Below, one piece after another: positions 8,214-50,560 of a stretch of DNA of 64,000 nt (its first letter is position 1; each line of letters opens with the position of its first letter). This DNA comes from Lachnospiraceae bacterium (GTDB lineage: Bacteria > Bacillota > Clostridia > Lachnospirales > Lachnospiraceae): the NCBI GenBank assembly GCA_017938315.1, contig JAGBBV010000006.1, forward strand, positions 86,755 through 150,754. The letters run 5' to 3'. The position numbers and the translations under genes were made by a program. The notes below the pieces were generated by a model, which searched no databases, was not told where the DNA came from, and saw only the letters and a program-made list of their open reading frames with translations.

Positions 8214-8683
8214 TCCAAGTCCTCCTTTATCATAATTTTTGCTCTGTAATAAGTAACCCTTGCCCAGCTTTCTGTCTTGTGAAACAGAGTTGCGATTTGG
8301 GCAAATGACAATTCGCCAAAAGTCCGTAGCCAGAAGATTTCTTTATATGGTTCTTGCAGCCTGTGTAAGACTTTATGTATGGCATAAGCGGTTTCTTTGT
8401 CTGTAAATTGCTTTTCGATATTTTCCTCAGAAAGGATGATTTCAAGGGGATAATCTACATGTCTGTTTTGTTTTTTGATATGCGTAAAAAAAGTGTTCTT
8501 GGCAATGTTGCAGAGCCATGTACTGATTTTACAATTACCTTGAAAGTGATCAATCTTTTTTAGTGCTTTGAAAAATGTTTCTTGTGTGATTTCTTCTGCC
8601 AATGTAGGATTTTGACACAGACCTAACACAAACTTATATACTTCAGAAAAGTATGTTGCATATATTTGGTCAAAGTCTTGCAC
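8210..8683 (-). CDS. ECF-type RNA polymerase sigma factor
   Basis: This 157-residue sigma-70 family protein contains region 2 (LAEEITQETFFKALKKI, core binding and -10 recognition) and region 4 (ELSFAQIATLFHKTESWAR, a helix-turn-helix for the -35). It lacks regions 1 and 3, as ECF factors do. The start is GTG with a full AAGGAGGTGA ribosome site. It is held by the anti-sigma factor encoded next to it. An ECF-like promoter just upstream suggests autoregulation. Confidence 0.9.
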   Translation of the reverse strand: MQDFDQIYATYFSEVYKFVLGLCQNPTLAEEITQETFFKALKKIDHFQGNCKISTWLCNIAKNTFFTHIKKQNRHVDYPLEIILSEENIEKQFTDKETAYAIHKVLHRLQEPYKEIFWLRTFGELSFAQIATLFHKTESWARVTYYRAKIMIKEDLE

Positions 8684-41382: not shown

Positions 41383-43623
41383 ATGAGAAGACCTTTAAGC
41401 GTAATCTGTCTTTTTGCGGTCATCTTACTTTTTTTCGGAACGAAGATGATTAAGGAATCCCCTCCTGAGTATGTGTTATGGGAGGGGCAGGAAATAACTG
41501 TAACCGGAAAAGTATATAGGAAGGAAGTTACAGGGGAAAAAGACAAAAAAAGACAGCTTGTTTATTTGAAACTTATAACGGTAGAAAATCAGCAGGAGAA
41601 AAGGAAGGTCATAGGAGATGACTGTACCATATGCTATTTAGACGCCGATGAAGAAATGCCCAAGATGGGAAGTATCATACGGGCATCCGGAAAAATGCGA
41701 TGCTTTGAATCGGCATCAAACCCGGGACAATTCGATGCAAAATCTTATTATCATGTATTAAATATTTCTTTTCAGTTAAATCAAACAAAAATTCAGCGAA
41801 AATCATTATCCTACAATCAATATGAAGAAGCACTTTACAACTTAAGGTGCCGGTGTGCAGATATTTTAGACATGACACTTCCTTCTGAGGATGCATCTGT
41901 AATGAAGACGATGCTTTTGGGAGATAAAAAAGCTACCGGTGAAGAGAGGAAAAAATTATATCAAAGAAACGGAATCGCGCATATTCAAGCAATTTCAGGA
42001 CTTCATATTTCCATTATTGGAATGACTTTGTACCGGTTGCTTAAAAAAACTGGTGCCCCTATTATAGTGGCAACGGTGCTTCCCATTGTGGTTATGACGG
42101 GATATGGATTTATGACAGGTTTCTCTGTTTCAGTTATCCGCGCAGTGGGCATGTTTGCAATTCACATGCTTGGAGTCATGTGCAGAAGGACATATGATAT
42201 GGTTACGGCAACTGCCATACTTGCATTATGTATTTTAACAGAGCAACCACTGTATATGTATAACAGTAGTTTCCTACTGTCTTTTGGATGTGTACTGGGA
42301 ATTGGTCTTCTATTACCGGCGCTAACAAAAAAGCGGTTAGAGCATGAAAAGGAGCCGGAGGGATTTCTACTCAAAGTCCTGTCGGGGGCGACTGTTTCCA
42401 TTGCAATGTTACCATTACAACTTTCTTTTTTCTATCAGGTTCCGATTTATTCTGTTTTTTTGAATCTTTTAGTAATCCCACTTATGAGTATGATTTTGCC
42501 AGCAGGAATTTTTCTATTGTTATTGGAAGTGACAGCACCCCTGACCGGAGAAATGGGAATGATTTTCGGTAAGTTAATGGCAGTAACTATTGAAGTTATT
42601 TTGAATACATATGATTTTGCGTGCAGTATTTGTGAATGGTTGCCCGCGGGACTTTTTACAGCAGGATGCCCTAAGAAATGGAGACTGGTTGCTTATGTGG
42701 GAACGCTGGTTTTGATAGTGCTGTTTCAAAGGAAACTTTCTTTGAAAAATAAGTGGATAATGACAATCGGTGCAGTATTTTTTTTGCTGTGGCCGGTGCA
42801 AGGGCATGATGCTGTTACATTTTTGGATGTGGGACAGGGAGACTGTATTCACATAGAAAGCAAGACCGGAAATCATTATTTGGTAGATGGTGGCAGTAGC
42901 AGTGTATCAAATGTAGGAGAATACCGCATTCTTCCTTACTTAAAGTATCGAGGTATCAGAGAGATAGAAGCAGTCTTTGTGACACATCCGGATGAAGATC
43001 ACTGCAATGGAATTTCGGAACTCTTTTGTATGGCAAAGAAAGAGGGAATTATTATTCGTGGTTTGTATTTACCAGATGTTGGTGTAAATGTAAAAACGGA
43101 AAAGTACAATGAACTTGTGCAGATAGCAGAAGAAAACGGGATATGCGTCAAATATTTGTCTAAAGGAATGTGTATGAGCGATGGGGCAATGTCATTATTC
43201 TGTTTACATCCCGACAGTGGCTATGAAACGGAAGATGAAAATGAATATTCGCTTGTTCTGCTATTGCAGCATGCAAGGGCGGGGAGCCGGAAAGCGGTTA
43301 ATATCCTTCTTACCGGGGATATAGAAGAAGCGGGGGAACTGGAATTACTTAAGACTTTACAGGAATTTGATATTAAAGATATTGATTTACTAAAAGTGGC
43401 ACATCATGGTTCGAGAAATTCAAGTTCGGACGCATTTTTAATGCAAACAAATCCTTCTCGGGCAGTGATATCCTGTGGGGAGAATAACAGGTATGGGCAT
43501 CCCCATAAGGAAACACTGGAGCGGCTTTCAGGGAAAGGTACAATTATTTTAACAACACCGGAGTGTGGAGCTATTACAGTGGAACTGGATGAGGAAGTTA
43601 AAATATATGGCTTTCTCAGATGA
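41383..43623 (+). CDS. comEC: ComEC/Rec2 competence DNA channel
   Basis: This 746-residue protein has an N-terminal DUF4131/OB-like domain (about 30-150), the polytopic competence domain (HIQAISGLHISIIGMTLYRL, about 200-460) and a C-terminal metallo-beta-lactamase domain (FLDVGQGDCIHIES, THPDEDHCNG, KVAHHGSRNSSSD). It forms the membrane pore for single-stranded DNA uptake and probably degrades the other strand. All domains are present, so the gene seems intact. A hairpin repeat array starts 38 bases after its stop. Confidence 0.92.
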   Translation: MRRPLSVICLFAVILLFFGTKMIKESPPEYVLWEGQEITVTGKVYRKEVTGEKDKKRQLVYLKLITVENQQEKRKVIGDDCTICYLDADEEMPKMGSIIRASGKMRCFESASNPGQFDAKSYYHVLNISFQLNQTKIQRKSLSYNQYEEALYNLRCRCADILDMTLPSEDASVMKTMLLGDKKATGEERKKLYQRNGIAHIQAISGLHISIIGMTLYRLLKKTGAPIIVATVLPIVVMTGYGFMTGFSVSVIRAVGMFAIHMLGVMCRRTYDMVTATAILALCILTEQPLYMYNSSFLLSFGCVLGIGLLLPALTKKRLEHEKEPEGFLLKVLSGATVSIAMLPLQLSFFYQVPIYSVFLNLLVIPLMSMILPAGIFLLLLEVTAPLTGEMGMIFGKLMAVTIEVILNTYDFACSICEWLPAGLFTAGCPKKWRLVAYVGTLVLIVLFQRKLSLKNKWIMTIGAVFFLLWPVQGHDAVTFLDVGQGDCIHIESKTGNHYLVDGGSSSVSNVGEYRILPYLKYRGIREIEAVFVTHPDEDHCNGISELFCMAKKEGIIIRGLYLPDVGVNVKTEKYNELVQIAEENGICVKYLSKGMCMSDGAMSLFCLHPDSGYETEDENEYSLVLLLQHARAGSRKAVNILLTGDIEEAGELELLKTLQEFDIKDIDLLKVAHHGSRNSSSDAFLMQTNPSRAVISCGENNRYGHPHKETLERLSGKGTIILTTPECGAITVELDEEVKIYGFLR

Positions 43624-43660
43624 ATATAGTTGATCAGACGAGGGATGATTAACCAATTGC

Positions 43661-44342
43661 AGGCGGACAGGAAGCAATCTGGCGGACAGAACGAGGCGGC
43701 GAGGTCCGCCTGAAAGAAGCAAGCAAGCAAACAGGCGGACAGAAAGGGGTAGCGAGGTCCGCCTGAAAGGAGAAAGCAAACAAACAGGCGGACAGAAAGG
43801 GATAGCGAGGTCCGCCTGAAAGAAGCAAGCAAGCAAACAGGCGGACAGAAAGGGGCGGCGAGGTCCGCCTGAAAGGAGAAAGCAAGCAAGCAGGCGGACA
43901 GTGAGGGGTAGCATGGTCCGCCTGAAAGGAGAAAGCAAGCAAACAGGCGGACAGAACGAGGCGGCGAGGTCCGCCTGAAAGAAGCAAGCAAGCAGGCGGA
44001 CAGAAAGGGGTAGCGAGGTCCGCCTGAAAGGAGACAGCAAGCAAACAGGCGGACAGAAAGGGGTAGCGAGGTCCGCCTGAAAGGAGACAGCAAGCAAGCA
44101 GGCGGACAGTGAGGGGTAGCGTGGTCCGCCTGAAAGTAGAAAGCAAGCAAACAGGCGGACAGAAAGGGATAGCGAGGTCCGCCTGAAAGGAGAAAGCAAG
44201 CGAGCAGGCGGACAGAAAGGGGTAGCGCGGTCCGCCTGAAAGTAGAAAGCAAGCAAGCAGGCGGACAGAACGAGGCGACGCGGTCCGCCTGAAAGGAGAC
44301 AGCAAGCAAACAGGCGGACAGAAAGCAGCAACCCAGTCCGCC
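43661..44342. repeat. Tandem 53-bp hairpin repeat array, about 13 units
   Basis: The motif GGCGGAC recurs at 43681, 43734, 43787, 43840, 43893, 43946, 43995, 44048, 44101, 44154, 44207, 44260 and 44313: steps of 53 bp, except one of 49. A partial unit stands at 43662. In each unit CAGGCGGAC pairs with GTCCGCCTG (9-bp stem) around a 16-base variable purine-rich loop, followed by a 22-base GAAAGGAGAAAGCAAGC-like linker. Loops occur in a few recurring variants (GAAAG, GAACG or GTGAG starts). The last unit has a degenerate loop and linker. The unit is not a multiple of three, so it is not a protein repeat. It is richer in G+C than the flanks. Confidence 0.9.
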
Positions 44343-44430
44343 TAAACTAAGAAAAAGAACAAATAGTGGGACAAAGAGTAGCAATATAGCCACATGAAAC
44401 AAAGAAATACAGTAACAAGGAGGCATATCA

Positions 44431-45231
44431 GTGAAAATAATTGAATCAATATTAAGAGAAGAGAAAGTACAACTTGAAAAAATTATAAAAGAAGTTCAAA
44501 AGAGGCTCAAAACGGCACCGCCAGGACATTTACGGATTACAAAAAAACGTAATATGCCACAATATTATTATAAAAGTAATGAGACCGGAAGAAATGGTAG
44601 GTACATAAAAAAGGATGAAACAGAGCTTGTCAGAGGACTTGCACAGAAAGACTATGACATTTGCATGGTGAAGAATGCACAAGAAAGAGTAAAAGCAATC
44701 ACAACTTTTTTATTAAAGTATGAAAACACCTCCCTAAAGCAAATATACCGGCAAACAAATCAATACCGCAGAGCGTTGATTGATACATCGGTCATATCCG
44801 ATGAAGAATATATAAAGAGATGGCAAAGCGTCGAATACAAAGGTAAACAATTTGCAGAAGAAGGACCGGAGATTATGACAGAAAGGGGAGAAAGAGTGAG
44901 ATCAAAATCAGAGAAAATAATTGCAGATAAATTGTATATGCTTGGCATACCATACCGGTATGAATATCCAATCATATTAGAAGGCAGAATTAAAATATAT
45001 CCTGACTTTACGATTCTAAGAATGCCGGCAAGAGAAGAAGTCTATTTAGAGCATTTCGGAATGATGGGTGATAGTAATTATGTAGAAAATATGCTTTGCA
45101 AATTAAATACTTATGAAAAAAATGAAATTTACATAGGGGTAAATCTTTTTGTGACCTTTGAAACAAGTAAGAAACCTTTAAATACACGGGCACTGGACAA
45201 AATGTTAAAGAAGCTGTTTCTGCCGGAATAG
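44431..45231 (+). CDS. PD-(D/E)XK nuclease-like protein
   Basis: This 266-residue protein has a helical N-terminal half (to about 140; Lys/Arg-rich MPQYYYKSNETGRNGRYIKK hairpin) and a C-terminal domain with the PD-(D/E)XK pattern: E161 in RSKSEKIIAD, PYRYEYPI, P191-D192 in IYPDFTIL and E207 in VYLEHFGMM, as in nuclease domains attached to some helicases. Residues 207-208 read EH rather than ExK, a known variant. The GTG start follows AAGGAGG by seven bases. It stands alone, 88 bases after the hairpin array. Substrate unknown. Confidence 0.65.
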   Translation: MKIIESILREEKVQLEKIIKEVQKRLKTAPPGHLRITKKRNMPQYYYKSNETGRNGRYIKKDETELVRGLAQKDYDICMVKNAQERVKAITTFLLKYENTSLKQIYRQTNQYRRALIDTSVISDEEYIKRWQSVEYKGKQFAEEGPEIMTERGERVRSKSEKIIADKLYMLGIPYRYEYPIILEGRIKIYPDFTILRMPAREEVYLEHFGMMGDSNYVENMLCKLNTYEKNEIYIGVNLFVTFETSKKPLNTRALDKMLKKLFLPE

Positions 45232-45274: not shown

Positions 45275-45302
45275 TTGAATATTTGTAGGGCTGTGATAAA
45301 AT
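45275..45302 (+). promoter_or_regulatory. Sigma-A promoter for holA
   Basis: TTGAAT (45275-45280) and TAAAAT (45297-45302) are 16 bp apart, 26 bases before the start codon. A small dyad AGTTC-ATAAA-GAACT lies just upstream (45260-45274). Confidence 0.45.
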
Positions 45303-45328: not shown

Positions 45329-46303
45329 ATGCAGAGATTGAACGAAGATATCAAAACAGGACAATTGAAGAATTTATATCTGCTTTATGGCGAGGAGGCT
45401 TATCTGCGTAGGCAGTACCGCGACAGGCTCAAAGACGCAATCATTGGCGATGATACGATGAACTATCAATACTTCGAGGGCAAGAATATTGCAGTCGGAG
45501 AAATTATAGATTTGGCAGAGACCATGCCCTTTTTTGCAGAGAAAAGGCTTATCGTTTTAGAAAATACTAGCTTGTTTAAAAGTGGAGGGGAACAGCTGGC
45601 AGAATATTTGACAGCCCAGGCAGAAAGTACAAGCTTTTTGTTTGTGGAAACAGAGGTTGATAAGAGGAGTAAGCTTTTTAAAACACTACAGTCAAAGGGC
45701 AGTGTGACGGAGTTTGGCGTGCAGGATGAAGGCACATTAAAACGCTGGATTTTGGGCATGATGAAGAAAGAAGGAAAGCAGATATCTTCAGGGAACTTGG
45801 AATACTTTTTAGAAAAAACAGGAACGGATATGGAAAATATCCGAAAAGAGGCTGAAAAACTGTTTTGCTATTGTATGGATAACGATACCATTAGCAGGGA
45901 AGATATTGACGAAATCTGTATTAAACAGCTAAGTAGTCATATTTTTGACATGGTAAGTGCCATTGCAGATAAACAACAGAAGAAAGCATTGGAATTGTAC
46001 TATGAGTTGCTTGCTTTAAAAGAACCGCCTATGAGGATATTATTTTTGATTGCAAGACAATTTAATATGTTACTGCAGGTGAAGGAACTGCATAAAAAAG
46101 GATTTCAAAATAAGGCGATTGGTGAAAAAGTTGGACTTCCCGGTTTCATTGCAGGAAAGTATATGACCCAGGCGGGGAGATTTACAATGGATGAACTGAA
46201 AAATGCGGTGGAGGCTTGTGTGGAAGCGGAAGAGTCTATCAAGACAGGGAAGATTAACGATAATATGAGCGTTGAGTTACTCATCATTAAATACAGCAGT
46301 TGA
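45329..46303 (+). CDS. holA: DNA polymerase III subunit delta
   Basis: This 324-residue clamp-loader subunit opens the sliding clamp. LKNLYLLYGEEAYLRRQYRDRL is the N-terminal HolA signature, the AAA+-like fold lacks a functional Walker A as expected, and the C-terminal collar helices (VGLPGFIAGKYMTQAGRF, AVEACVEAEESIKTGKIND) are complete. Only a weak ribosome site (AGAGG, distant) is seen. Confidence 0.92.
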   Translation: MQRLNEDIKTGQLKNLYLLYGEEAYLRRQYRDRLKDAIIGDDTMNYQYFEGKNIAVGEIIDLAETMPFFAEKRLIVLENTSLFKSGGEQLAEYLTAQAESTSFLFVETEVDKRSKLFKTLQSKGSVTEFGVQDEGTLKRWILGMMKKEGKQISSGNLEYFLEKTGTDMENIRKEAEKLFCYCMDNDTISREDIDEICIKQLSSHIFDMVSAIADKQQKKALELYYELLALKEPPMRILFLIARQFNMLLQVKELHKKGFQNKAIGEKVGLPGFIAGKYMTQAGRFTMDELKNAVEACVEAEESIKTGKINDNMSVELLIIKYSS

Positions 46304-46829: not shown

Positions 46830-47195
46830 ATGCAAAAACAGGATAACATTGTGGAACAGTGTGCATACATTCATGTGCATGAAGACATTGTACAGCAGGT
46901 TAATCAAGAAATTCCTGATGAGGAGATGCTTTATGATCTGGCAGATTTCTTCAAGGTATTTGCAGATTCTACCAGAATTAAAATATTATATGTATTGCTT
47001 TGTTCAGAAATGTGTGTTTGTGATCTGGCACAAATACTGAATATGACCCAGTCGGCGATTTCCCATCAGCTCCGCACGCTAAAACAGATGGATTTGGTGA
47101 AGAACAGAAGAGAAGGAAAAACTATTTTTTATTCACTTGCTGATGAGCATATTAAGTCTATACTAAGCCAGGGTATGGAGCACATTAACGAATAA
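46830..47195 (+). CDS. ArsR/SmtB-family metal-sensing repressor (CadC-like)
   Basis: This 121-residue winged-helix repressor has the DNA-recognition helix MTQSAISHQLRTLKQ and the alpha3 metal motif MCVCD (C62, C64), with a further Cys at residue 11, as in CadC-type Cd/Pb/Zn sensors. The last helix DEHIKSILSQGMEHINE also offers the His/Asp/Glu ligands of the alpha5 zinc site, so both sites may exist. It controls the operator just upstream and the following transporter genes. Confidence 0.88.
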   Translation: MQKQDNIVEQCAYIHVHEDIVQQVNQEIPDEEMLYDLADFFKVFADSTRIKILYVLLCSEMCVCDLAQILNMTQSAISHQLRTLKQMDLVKNRREGKTIFYSLADEHIKSILSQGMEHINE

Positions 47196-47234
47196 TAATA
47201 TAATGATATAAGAAAATGAAAAGGAGAGAAAAAA

Positions 47235-47456
47235 ATGAAAAAAACTTATATTTTAGAAGACTTAGATTGCGCACATTGTGCGGCAAAGATTGAGACAGAA
47301 GTAGGAAAACTGGAAGGTGTCAGCAAAAGCACGGTTACCTTATTTACACAGAAACTTGTAATTGAAGTGGATGATGATAAGGCCGGTAGTATTTTTAAAG
47401 ATATTGAGAAAATTGTTAAAAAGTTTGAACCTGATGTAGAAGTTATTGAAAAGTAG
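47235..47456 (+). CDS. Heavy-metal-associated (HMA) domain protein
   Basis: This 73-residue ferredoxin-like domain carries the metal motif LDCAHCAAKIE (C12, C15). It corresponds to the N-terminal metal-binding domain that is usually fused to CadA/ZntA pumps but is encoded separately here, directly before a pump that lacks it. It may deliver metal to the ATPase. Confidence 0.88.
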   Translation: MKKTYILEDLDCAHCAAKIETEVGKLEGVSKSTVTLFTQKLVIEVDDDKAGSIFKDIEKIVKKFEPDVEVIEK

Positions 47457-47476
47457 AATATAGAAAGCAGTTTATT

Positions 47477-49345
47477 ATGAGTAAGAAGTTAAAGAAAAGA
47501 ATGAAGCGGGTCATAATTGGGGCAGTTATCTACGCAATAGCCATTCTTTTAAGTGTATGGCTGCAGCAAATACCATGGTTTATTCATTTGACGGCATTTC
47601 TAATTGCCTATGTGGTGATTGGTGGTGATGTGGTCAAGAAGGCATTAAAAAATATTGGCAGAGGTCAAGTCTTTGATGAAAACTTCCTGATGATGATTGC
47701 GACAGTGGGGGCGTTTTTTGTGGGAGATTATAAAGAAGCCGTAGCTGTTATGCTTTTTTACCAGGTGGGTGAATGCTTCCAGTCCTATGCAGTAGGAAAA
47801 TCCCGCAAATCAATTACAGGTTTAATGGATATCAGACCTGATAGTGCTAATTTGTGCCGTGACGGTGAGTGGATAACGGTAGAGCCGGATGAGGTAAATG
47901 TCGGGGATGTGATTTTAGTCCGCCCGGGTGAAAAAATACCTTTGGATGGCTTTGTAGAAAAAGGCAGTTCTTCTCTGGATACCATGGCTCTTACCGGTGA
48001 AAGCATGCCCAGAGATGTAGCCGTGTGTGATGAAGTAATCAGCGGATGTGTCAATAAAACCGGTGTGCTTGAAATAAAGGTATCTAAGATTTACGGCCAG
48101 TCTACTGTTGCAAAGATTTTGGAACTGGTAGAAAACGCAAGTAGTAAAAAGTCTAGGGCTGAAAACTTTATTACAAAATTTGCAAGATACTATACTCCTA
48201 TTGTTGTAATATGCGCAGCACTTCTTGCAGTAGTACCTCCTATTTTATTGGGCGGCGGATGGAGCGAATGGATTTACAGGGCATTATCCTTTCTCGTAAT
48301 ATCCTGTCCTTGTGCCCTTGTGATTAGTATTCCTTTAAGCTTCTTTGGCGGACTTGGGGGAGCAAGTAAAGAAGGCATTCTGATAAAAGGAAGCAATTAC
48401 CTTGAAGCCCTTGCTGATACGGAAATTGTGGTTATGGATAAAACAGGTACATTGACAAAAGGAAACTTTGAAGTGTCAAAAGTTGTTCCTGCAAAAGAGG
48501 ATATAACACAAGAAGAGCTGCTTGAACTGGCAGCTTATGCAGAAAGCTATTCCAATCATCCTATATCAAAATCCTTGCTTACAGCATATGGAAGAGAAGT
48601 AGATACAAGTATCATAAGCGATGTAAAGGAAATTCCCGGTCACGGTATAGTAGCCATGGTGAAAGACCGTGAAATATATGCCGGAAATGAAAAACTGATG
48701 ATAAGCAAAGGCATTAGTCCGGCTTTGCCAGACGACGCAGGAACCATTATCCATATAGGGGAAAGTACAGGTGCATATCTTGGGTATATTTTGATTGAAG
48801 ATGAAATGAAAAAGGATGCAGAAAGTGCCATATCCGACCTTAAGACAGCAGGTGTGAAAAGAATAATTATGTTAACCGGTGACCAGCAGAAAGTAGCAGA
48901 AAAAGTGGCAGGGAAACTGGGAATTAGTGAATTTTTTGCAGAACTTCTTCCGGGGGATAAGGTTGACAAAGTAGAAACACTATTTATGGAAAAATCAGAA
49001 AAGGGAAAACTTGCCTTTGTGGGAGACGGTATTAATGATGCACCGGTACTTGCCAGAGCTGATATCGGAATTGCCATGGGTGGACTTGGCAGTGATGCAG
49101 CAATTGAAGCGGCAGATGTAGTCATCATGACAGATGAGCCTTCCAAACTGGCAAGAGCCATGAAGATATCAAGAAAGACCTTGGGAATTGTAAAGCAGAA
49201 TATCGTCTTTGCCATTGGAATTAAAGTACTTGTGCTATTACTTGCAGCTGCGGGAATGGCTTCTATGTGGGCAGCGGTGTTTGCAGATGTGGGTGTGGCA
49301 GTGATTGCTATATTGAATGCTATGCGCGCTTTAAAGTGCAGATAG
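47477..49345 (+). CDS. Heavy-metal P1B-type ATPase (CadA/ZntA-like efflux pump)
   Basis: This 622-residue pump exports metal ions using ATP. Visible are the actuator loop LTGESMP, the transmembrane metal site SCPCALVIS (C277-P278-C279), the phosphorylated Asp in DKTGTLT (D321), the SNHPIS His-Pro and the hinge GDGINDAPVLARADIGIAMG. CPC and a conserved Lys/Asp in the last helices (IGIKVLVLLLAA, FADVGVAVIAI) indicate the Zn/Cd/Pb group. The N-terminal HMA domain is absent; the separate gene upstream supplies it. Confidence 0.93.
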   Translation: MSKKLKKRMKRVIIGAVIYAIAILLSVWLQQIPWFIHLTAFLIAYVVIGGDVVKKALKNIGRGQVFDENFLMMIATVGAFFVGDYKEAVAVMLFYQVGECFQSYAVGKSRKSITGLMDIRPDSANLCRDGEWITVEPDEVNVGDVILVRPGEKIPLDGFVEKGSSSLDTMALTGESMPRDVAVCDEVISGCVNKTGVLEIKVSKIYGQSTVAKILELVENASSKKSRAENFITKFARYYTPIVVICAALLAVVPPILLGGGWSEWIYRALSFLVISCPCALVISIPLSFFGGLGGASKEGILIKGSNYLEALADTEIVVMDKTGTLTKGNFEVSKVVPAKEDITQEELLELAAYAESYSNHPISKSLLTAYGREVDTSIISDVKEIPGHGIVAMVKDREIYAGNEKLMISKGISPALPDDAGTIIHIGESTGAYLGYILIEDEMKKDAESAISDLKTAGVKRIIMLTGDQQKVAEKVAGKLGISEFFAELLPGDKVDKVETLFMEKSEKGKLAFVGDGINDAPVLARADIGIAMGGLGSDAAIEAADVVIMTDEPSKLARAMKISRKTLGIVKQNIVFAIGIKVLVLLLAAAGMASMWAAVFADVGVAVIAILNAMRALKCR

Positions 49346-49402: not shown

Positions 49403-49426
49403 GAGGTTAGTTTAATTGTATAAGTG

Positions 49427-49598
49427 AGATAGAGGTTGCGTGTTTTATGAGTAATTTTTTGGATGTGGCAGTCACAGGTGAAGGAAAATGAAAGGAAAAA
49501 ACGCCGAAAGAATCTGTATACTGCAGGCAGGTTCTTGGGCATGCAGTGAAGAACTGCATGACTGTCATCAAAATTAATTTGGTGGGGCGCTATCCGAT
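49427..49598 (+). ncRNA. Lysine riboswitch (L box)
   Basis: The leader of dapA carries L-box landmarks in order: AGAGGTTGCG (49431-49440), GAGTA, GGATGTGGCAGTCACAGGTGA, the GCCGAAAG core near 49502, TTCTTGGGCATGCAGT and its partner ACTGCATGACTGTCA, and the closing GGGGCGCTATCC (49584-49594), which pairs with the start. The terminator at 49614 completes a transcription-attenuation design: lysine binding should favour termination of the lysine-synthesis genes. Boundaries are approximate. Confidence 0.85.
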
Positions 49599-49613
49599 AA
49601 AAAAGATGATGAG

Positions 49614-49675: not shown

Positions 49676-50560
49676 ATGGCTGTATTTACAGGCGCAGGTG
49701 TTGCTATTGTTACACCTTTCAAAGCAAACGGAGAAGTAAATTATGAAAAATTTGCAGAACTGATTGAGTTTCAGATTGCAAATGGAACAGATGCCATCAT
49801 TGTGTGTGGAACCACAGGAGAATCATCCACACTTACGCATGAAGAGCATTTAGATGTGATTAAGTACTGTGCAGAAAAAGTGGCAGGAAGAGTTCCCGTA
49901 GTAGCAGGAACCGGTTCCAATTGCACGGAAACTGCGATTTACCTTTCTACAGAAGCAGAAAAATATGGAGTAGACGGACTTTTATTGGTATCCCCTTATT
50001 ATAACAAGGCCACACAGAAAGGTCTGTATGCACATTATAAAGCTATTGCAGACTCTGTAAAAATTCCTTGTATTTTATACAATGTACCTAGTCGTACAGG
50101 TTGCAATATTTTACCGGAAACAGTAGTAAAGCTTTGCAACGACGTAGAGAATATTGTGGGTGTCAAAGAAGCAAGCGGAAATATTTCCCAGATTGCAAAA
50201 TTAATGAATCTTGCAGGCGGTAAAGTGGATTTATACTCCGGTAATGACGATCAGATTGTACCTATTATGTCTCTGGGCGGAATCGGTGTTATTTCCGTAC
50301 TATCCAATGTGGCACCGAAAGAAACACATGAAATTTGTGCAAAATTCTTCGCAGGTGATGTGGCAGGCAGCCGTGCAGAACAGCTTCGAGCAATTCCTTT
50401 ATGCGATGCCCTGTTCTGTGAAGTGAATCCTATCCCCGTAAAAAAGGCATTAAATATTATGGGTATGGAAGTAGGACCCATGCGTATGCCCCTTACAGAA
50501 ATGGAAGATGCAAATGCCGCTAAATTAGAAAAGGCAATGAAGGATTACGGAATTCTTTAA
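49676..50560 (+). CDS. dapA: 4-hydroxy-tetrahydrodipicolinate synthase
   Basis: This 294-residue enzyme condenses pyruvate with aspartate semialdehyde, the first step committed to lysine and diaminopimelate. VCGTTGESSTLTHEE, LYNVPSRTGCNI (Tyr) and GVKEASGN (Schiff-base Lys near residue 161) are intact. GGAGG precedes the ATG. It is controlled by the lysine riboswitch upstream and forms an operon with dapB. Confidence 0.95.
   Translation: MAVFTGAGVAIVTPFKANGEVNYEKFAELIEFQIANGTDAIIVCGTTGESSTLTHEEHLDVIKYCAEKVAGRVPVVAGTGSNCTETAIYLSTEAEKYGVDGLLLVSPYYNKATQKGLYAHYKAIADSVKIPCILYNVPSRTGCNILPETVVKLCNDVENIVGVKEASGNISQIAKLMNLAGGKVDLYSGNDDQIVPIMSLGGIGVISVLSNVAPKETHEICAKFFAGDVAGSRAEQLRAIPLCDALFCEVNPIPVKKALNIMGMEVGPMRMPLTEMEDANAAKLEKAMKDYGIL

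Follow-up and report, generated by a model that had tools for sequence, protein, structure and literature searches.

Helically phased arrays of short inverted arms recur beside a family of predicted nuclease genes

A 64,000-nucleotide stretch of a Lachnospiraceae bacterium genome (assembly GCA_017938315.1, contig JAGBBV010000006.1, positions 86,755 to 150,754; hereafter the window) carries a tandem array of short inverted arms in front of a gene for a 266-amino-acid putative nuclease. The locus raises the question of whether such an array serves as RNA hairpins or as DNA sites for a protein and, if the latter, for which protein. The array is real and holds 13 units. Tandem Repeats Finder reports a period of 53 with 12.4 copies at 43672-44325, and the interval 43661-44345 contains 14 copies of GGCGGAC and 13 of GTCCGCC. 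Each unit is made of a 9-bp arm, a 16-base loop, a second 9-bp arm and a 19-base linker; one linker, of 15 bases, is 4 bp shorter and gives the single 49-bp step. Successive GGCGGAC motifs are separated by 19 bp, five steps of 53 bp, one of 49 bp and six more of 53 bp. A preliminary description, made from the letters of the window, had given about 13 units with 9-bp arms and a 16-base loop between comEC and a nuclease gene, which the count of 13 complete inverted units and the mapped genes bear out. Its single 49-bp step was also right, whereas the twelve 53-bp steps that it gave are in fact 11 of 13. The few shuffled loop variants that it reported were seen again, and the linkers are likewise a few variants reshuffled among units.

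The pattern GGCGGAC-N8-30-GTCCGCC has 13 matches in the 2.63-Mb genome, 13/13 of them inside the array. A script that scores arrays gave the window 20.95, whereas the best of 77 shuffles reached 4.05 and the best of 125 control stretches 4.7; in a later run the window scored 19.25, with 6.0 as the best of 200 shuffles. Chance is excluded, because the score lies far above both shuffles and control stretches.

Absence from all close relatives, together with the lack of a conserved neighbouring gene, had been named beforehand as a result that would count against the element. No relative was found to have the exact sequence, but arrays of this architecture stand next to other members of the gene family. 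With blastn, the window array has no match in the other 97 of 98 relatives, and the tandem pattern GTCCGCCTG-N12-32-CAGGCGGAC forms an array in 0 of the other 396 among 397 family genomes, with a single unrelated match in two of them. Within the 37 genus genomes the inverted pair of arms occurs as an array in the window genome only, with isolated one or two matches in 11 others. Matches to comEC were obtained in 37/37 of these genomes, and the region downstream of comEC was inspected in 30 genus loci. There, one sister species (G017) has five 52-bp units with arms AAGCGGAC/GTCCGCTT followed by a nuclease homologue, and another (G007) has 5.7 units of 54 bp with arms TAGGACA/TGTCCTA, also followed by a homologue; the two proteins are about 50-56% identical to that of the window.

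Arrays of short alternating arms at fixed spacing recur beside the nuclease family across many genera. The array score, which looks through the 700 bp ahead of the gene for hexamers that alternate in orientation at a fixed spacing, reached 6 or more in 52 of the first 78 loci, compared with 0/77 shuffles and 0/125 control stretches. For the final set, 273 genes with a profile match were reduced to 253 by dropping genes with <300 bp upstream as well as fragments, whose match began beyond model position 60 or stopped short of position 200, and to 200 non-redundant, near-full-length loci by removing near-identical upstream regions; the 11 dropped as fragments include two with an array (L031 and L096). 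Scores above 5.5 were found upstream in 126 of these 200 loci (1/200 shuffles), on the downstream side in 14 of 191 (1/191 shuffles) and on either side in 134 of 200. Since some arrays that can be seen by eye escape the score (L073, L074, L123 and L126, all below threshold), these counts are lower bounds. A batch from outside the family (L320-L339) gave 7 of 14 retained loci above 5.5. The 135 upstream arrays have a median of 14 called arms, with a median distance of 52 bp from the end of the last arm to the start codon. In 97 of 100 arrays, units resemble each other more closely in their arm cores than in the inter-arm sequence (means 0.93 and 0.62), a descriptive comparison in that the cores were picked for conservation; inter-arm likeness is below 0.5 in 30 of the 100. 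The most units among 80 loci, about 17 of 74 bp, stand upstream of 3980 in L138. The cultured commensals Butyrivibrio proteoclasticus P6B7 (L146) and Fusibacillus kribbianus YH-rum2234 (L118) are among the carriers of a clear array. In L077, L109, L175, L235, L252, L253, L254 and L330 the downstream side alone has an array above the threshold, and repeats flank the gene on both sides in L095, L131 and L147.

The spacing of the arrays is quantised in whole turns of B-DNA. Autocorrelation periods of 117 arrays fall at 51-54 bp (72 arrays), 61-64 bp (13), 71-75 bp (20) and 82-85 bp (6), with two more at 42 bp and one each at 56, 94, 106 and 125 bp; no period lies at 57-60, 65-70 or 76-81 bp. Unit lengths are thus quantised near 53, 63, 74 and 84 bp. 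The phasing test used periods with an autocorrelation z of at least 4 and a length below 100 bp. The 42 such periods outside 50-56 bp are best described by a repeat of 10.55-10.6 bp, and their coherence at 10.5 bp is 0.835, against a maximum of 0.566 in 2000 uniform draws. The coherence is 0.803 for the 26 periods outside 50-56 bp among 42 representatives of <45% identity. The turns are whole ones, because the mean phase is near zero, and the spacing has the integer multiples of about 10.5 bp that mark a helically phased array of protein sites. The earlier proposal that proteins bound at the arms would lie on one face of the DNA is strongly supported, as unit length changes by whole turns in relatives and spacing switches by about one turn inside a single array: L119 and its close relative L124 mix spacings of 21-22, 31-32 and 43 bp, and similar one-turn jumps occur in L211, L223, L248, L267, L270 and L289. 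In 112 arrays selected for regular spacing, 1174 of the 1261 spacing transitions differ from the mode by at most 1 bp.

If the units folded as RNA stems or as cruciforms, changes in the two arms of a unit should match, and RNA stems should in addition favour G-T pairs. In 119 arrays, taken from an earlier set of 193 loci reduced to 163, neighbouring arms match at 8520 positions, and random pairing within the same array gives 8505, showing no covariation. By locus there is no consistent G-T excess (54 favour G-T, 47 favour A-C and 18 tie; p = 0.55). The arms are not kept as base-paired stems, and the suggestion that the units could fold as RNA hairpins found no support, as complementarity between the two arms of a unit is no greater than that between arms of different units in the array. 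Because covariation and a consistent G-T excess are both absent, the arms look like independent protein sites in duplex DNA, and what had been called a hairpin unit is more aptly taken as two putative protein half-sites of opposite orientation.

The protein encoded beside the array gives no Pfam or NCBIfam match above cut-off. Its C-terminal half matches the PADLOC models PDC-S68 (1.2e-25) and HEAT_CxxC_PDDEXK (2.7e-6), and the predicted model shows this half as invariant and PD-(D/E)XK-like, with both the fold and the acidic residues of that superfamily (E161, PD192 and E207-H208). The N-terminal half of the model is variable and basic, and contains a long coiled coil and a beta-hairpin. The nuclease half resembles I-Bth0305I and TnsA. 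To our knowledge, I-Bth0305I, Vsr and TnsA nucleases have no arrays of phased sites of their own, and the array-linked nuclease differs from them in its N-terminal half. The same nuclease half is found inside plasmid genes annotated as AAA ATPase or RecD-like helicase (H1, H2 and H4-H6), in a plasmid record without annotation (H3), and within an open frame of 1125 codons at L162 (G027:C87).

A three-sequence query retrieved at least 555 relatives in named genomes, mostly Lachnospiraceae among the 80 matches listed. A family profile built from 72 proteins, with up to six candidates scored per genome, matches 119 of 397 family genomes (E≤1e-30), 11 of 37 genus genomes (near-full-length in 9) and 29 of 391 class genomes (E≤1e-20); 19 of these last lie outside the family, several with the nuclease half only. 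Many genomes have several copies. Two decayed, truncated copies in the genome of the window (L150/L168, G000:C16:76216-76500; L151/L152/L169, G000:C27:66483-66747) have no array above threshold, and none of three relics of the gene scores above 5.5 (3.5 and 4.6 for these two, 4.8 for the third). Patchy presence, multiple copies and decayed copies fit an element that is gained and lost. Two metagenome-assembled genomes labelled Treponema and Elusimicrobiaceae have near-alike loci (L109 and L125) with a common arm motif and a spacing of 83-84 bp, through contamination or transfer. The preliminary description recognised no described element, and no account of this nuclease family of gut Clostridia with its array was found in the open-access papers searched.

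Arm sequence differs between nuclease copies of one genome (similar arms in 1 of 63 pairs) and is alike in close orthologues, as in L212 and L236 (TTACGCGCA) and in L213 and L238 (GCGAACAAA). Recognition is best assigned to the linked nuclease because copies in one genome differ in their arms, and one host protein could hardly read arms so different; the simplest reading of these sequences is that every nuclease recognises the array linked to it. The neighbour scans, which drew on the first 75 proteins only, took 41 of 135 upstream and 48 of 143 downstream proteins with most comEC-linked loci left out, and revealed no recurring partner gene. Upstream neighbours are mainly housekeeping (S9 in 4/41, EF-Tu in 2/41), and none of the 25 downstream families displayed is present in more than 2 of 48. 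No ParA/ParB-type gene is among the 25 families displayed of 49 upstream and of 102 downstream. comEC is the neighbour in 27 of the 200 non-redundant loci, the window included; arms were called in 22 of these 27, about half of them AGTCGG-like, the others, including the window and several relatives, being different.

We therefore favour, with a probability of roughly 55%, a self-contained one-gene element consisting of a nuclease and its own cognate DNA array. The N-terminal half, through its coiled coil and beta-hairpin, would recognise the arms as a dimer or higher oligomer, and successive dimers would align along a single face of the helix, assembling cooperatively into a regular nucleoprotein array. 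Expression of the nuclease probably comes from read-through out of the upstream gene, as the last 160 bp before the nuclease gene show no enrichment of sigma-70 promoters over shuffles, only 1 of 132 loci has a terminator-like site separating the array from the gene, and in 107 of 135 the closest gene upstream is co-directional (simple open reading frame caller). The assembled array would act as both a transcription roadblock and a sink, keeping the nuclease low and parked, and the element is probably maintained as a mobile, selfish or defence cassette. Binding and cleavage, like the biological role, are inferences. A bolder version, which we consider improbable, is that the private phased array is a DNA antidote that polymerises the nuclease into an inactive filament; this would make it a genetic element of a new class, with an array and a specificity half that evolve together so quickly that copies sharing a genome become orthogonal.

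Several observations weigh against the one-gene element. The (D/E)XK lysine is absent from its usual place, where E207-H208-x-G stands instead, and Foldseek gave no match for the nuclease at E≤0.001, so that catalysis is not assured; K159, K162 or K224 of the predicted model could substitute for the lysine. In 66 of the 200 loci no array exceeds the threshold on either side, and below-threshold loci L080, L092 and L098 show no arms by eye. Cross-genome pairs with 60-80% identity have similar arms in 30-38% only, and arms therefore drift faster than the protein (these bins may still hold redundant loci, and the 0.9-1.0 bin, holding the same loci from two collections, was unused). Most copies within a genome share only about 34% identity, a distance at which cross-genome pairs are also unlike in their arms, so the difference within genomes does not show active avoidance. 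Arm likeness correlates significantly, though weakly, with protein identity (rho 0.14; 0/499 permutations); the correlation may reflect common descent, and the partial correlations (0.06 for the N-terminal half, 0.11 for the C-terminal half) do not single out the N-terminal half. Within-array spacing changes of at least 4 bp are weakly periodic (coherence 0.23, n = 76), some of them probably being miscalled arms. Summed over arrays, arm mismatches have a slight G-T excess (749 G-T, 674 A-C; p = 0.05). The step of roadblock and sink rests on absent promoter and terminator signals.

The alternative that survives best, possible although we lean clearly away from it, is an anti-phage nuclease for which the array is a mere operator, relieved during infection. 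The matches to PADLOC candidate defence models, the plasmid helicase and ATPase genes that contain the nuclease half, and the multi-copy, patchy occurrence would all suit it; the scanned upstream neighbours (41/135, first 25 families) are, however, mainly housekeeping rather than defence genes, and viral contigs hold no confirmed relative of the nuclease. A selfish homing cassette, in which the nuclease would spread by cutting sites that are empty or foreign, with units expanding and being exchanged through repair at the array, appears doubtful to a slightly greater degree. It would account for the likeness to I-Bth0305I and TnsA, the patchy presence in genus and family with several copies per genome, the decayed copies in the genome of the window and an insertion that, by eye, is neat between comEC and the holA promoter. 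In several relatives (L029, L043, L045 and L051) comEC is followed directly by holA without an insert, and in L029 a stretch that by eye resembles the promoter-like site of Table 1 comes after comEC. Against homing, the exact arm pairs occur nowhere else in the genome of the window, and the comEC site is common to many species, which suggests vertical inheritance.

It is very unlikely that the locus is type III toxin-antitoxin-like, with repeat RNAs from the array that bind and inhibit the nuclease. Tandem repeats do lie directly ahead of the gene, and the co-directional upstream genes make transcription of the array probable, but unit lengths track DNA turns, and the 119 arrays offer no sign of a structured RNA. 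Type III loci are expected to have a terminator between repeats and toxin gene, which is nearly always missing here, and no ToxN-type Pfam match was obtained at E≤1. DNA-level phasing, absent covariation, scarce terminators and the lack of a toxin-family match separate the arrays from ToxIN (PMC8860590), which likewise has tandem repeats directly before a nuclease gene. A neutral minisatellite, an expanded repeat without function that lies near the gene by chance, would explain the variable unit number, shuffled loops and species-specific sequence, but can hardly be reconciled with 126 of 200 loci of many different sequences beside one gene family, helical quantisation, arm cores more conserved than inter-arm sequence (with cores picked for conservation) and gene relics without arrays.

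Among known systems, the F-plasmid centromere sopC is built of tandem units about four helical turns long, in each of which a dimeric protein binds a short inverted repeat. The arrays share with it tandem units with inverted, putative protein sites; in contrast to sopC, they are linked to a nuclease, have units of 5, 6, 7 or 8 turns, change arm sequence between copies and species, and have no ParA/ParB among the displayed neighbour families. REP/BIME elements with their RAYT transposase also combine inverted repeats with a linked nuclease-like gene. This candidate was rejected, as the palindromes are not dispersed (13/13 exact pairs lie in the window array) and the linked gene has no Y1 transposase Pfam match at E≤1. 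The array is not a CRISPR array either, since its loops recur and its arms are inverted, and no Rfam family matches it at the gathering score; the preliminary view that it is neither CRISPR nor a protein repeat is supported.

The features around the array are collected in Table 1. On the minus strand, long open frames cross the array in three frames (43404-44426), because its unit has no stop codons there, and they are likely to be mis-annotated as proteins. The rest of the window nearby is ordinary: 46830-49345 presumably encodes an ArsR-type regulator followed by a heavy-metal P-type ATPase, and a lysine riboswitch (RF00168, Rfam, 131 bits) at 49422-49600 precedes a gene at 49676 that we take to be dihydrodipicolinate synthase-like.

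Table 1. Positions of the array and its flanking features in the window
Feature	Position	Strand	Basis
comEC, co-directional, upstream of array	41383..43623	+	Pfam
Orphan left arm CAGGCGGAC, precedes first full unit	43660..43668	+	Sequence
13 inverted-arm units, period 53 bp	43679..44344	.	Sequence, Tandem Repeats Finder, pattern count
Array arms CAGGCGGAC / GTCCGCCTG; first left arm is CTGGCGGAC	43679..44344	.	
Array, with loop and right arm degenerate in its last unit	43679..44344	.	
Shine-Dalgarno-like AAGGAGG ahead of nuclease gene	44417..44423	+	Sequence
266-amino-acid putative nuclease gene, GTG start	44431..45231	+	Sequence, PADLOC models, predicted structure
Promoter-like site between nuclease gene and holA	45275..45302	+	Sequence
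holA (DNA polymerase III delta), downstream flank	45329..46303	+	Pfam

Selection for helical phasing can here be read directly from genome sequence, across many different arrays. The nucleases would form a large family with built-in, rapidly diversifying putative cognate sites, a natural collection of decodable protein-DNA specificity pairs, and may represent a new mode of nuclease control.
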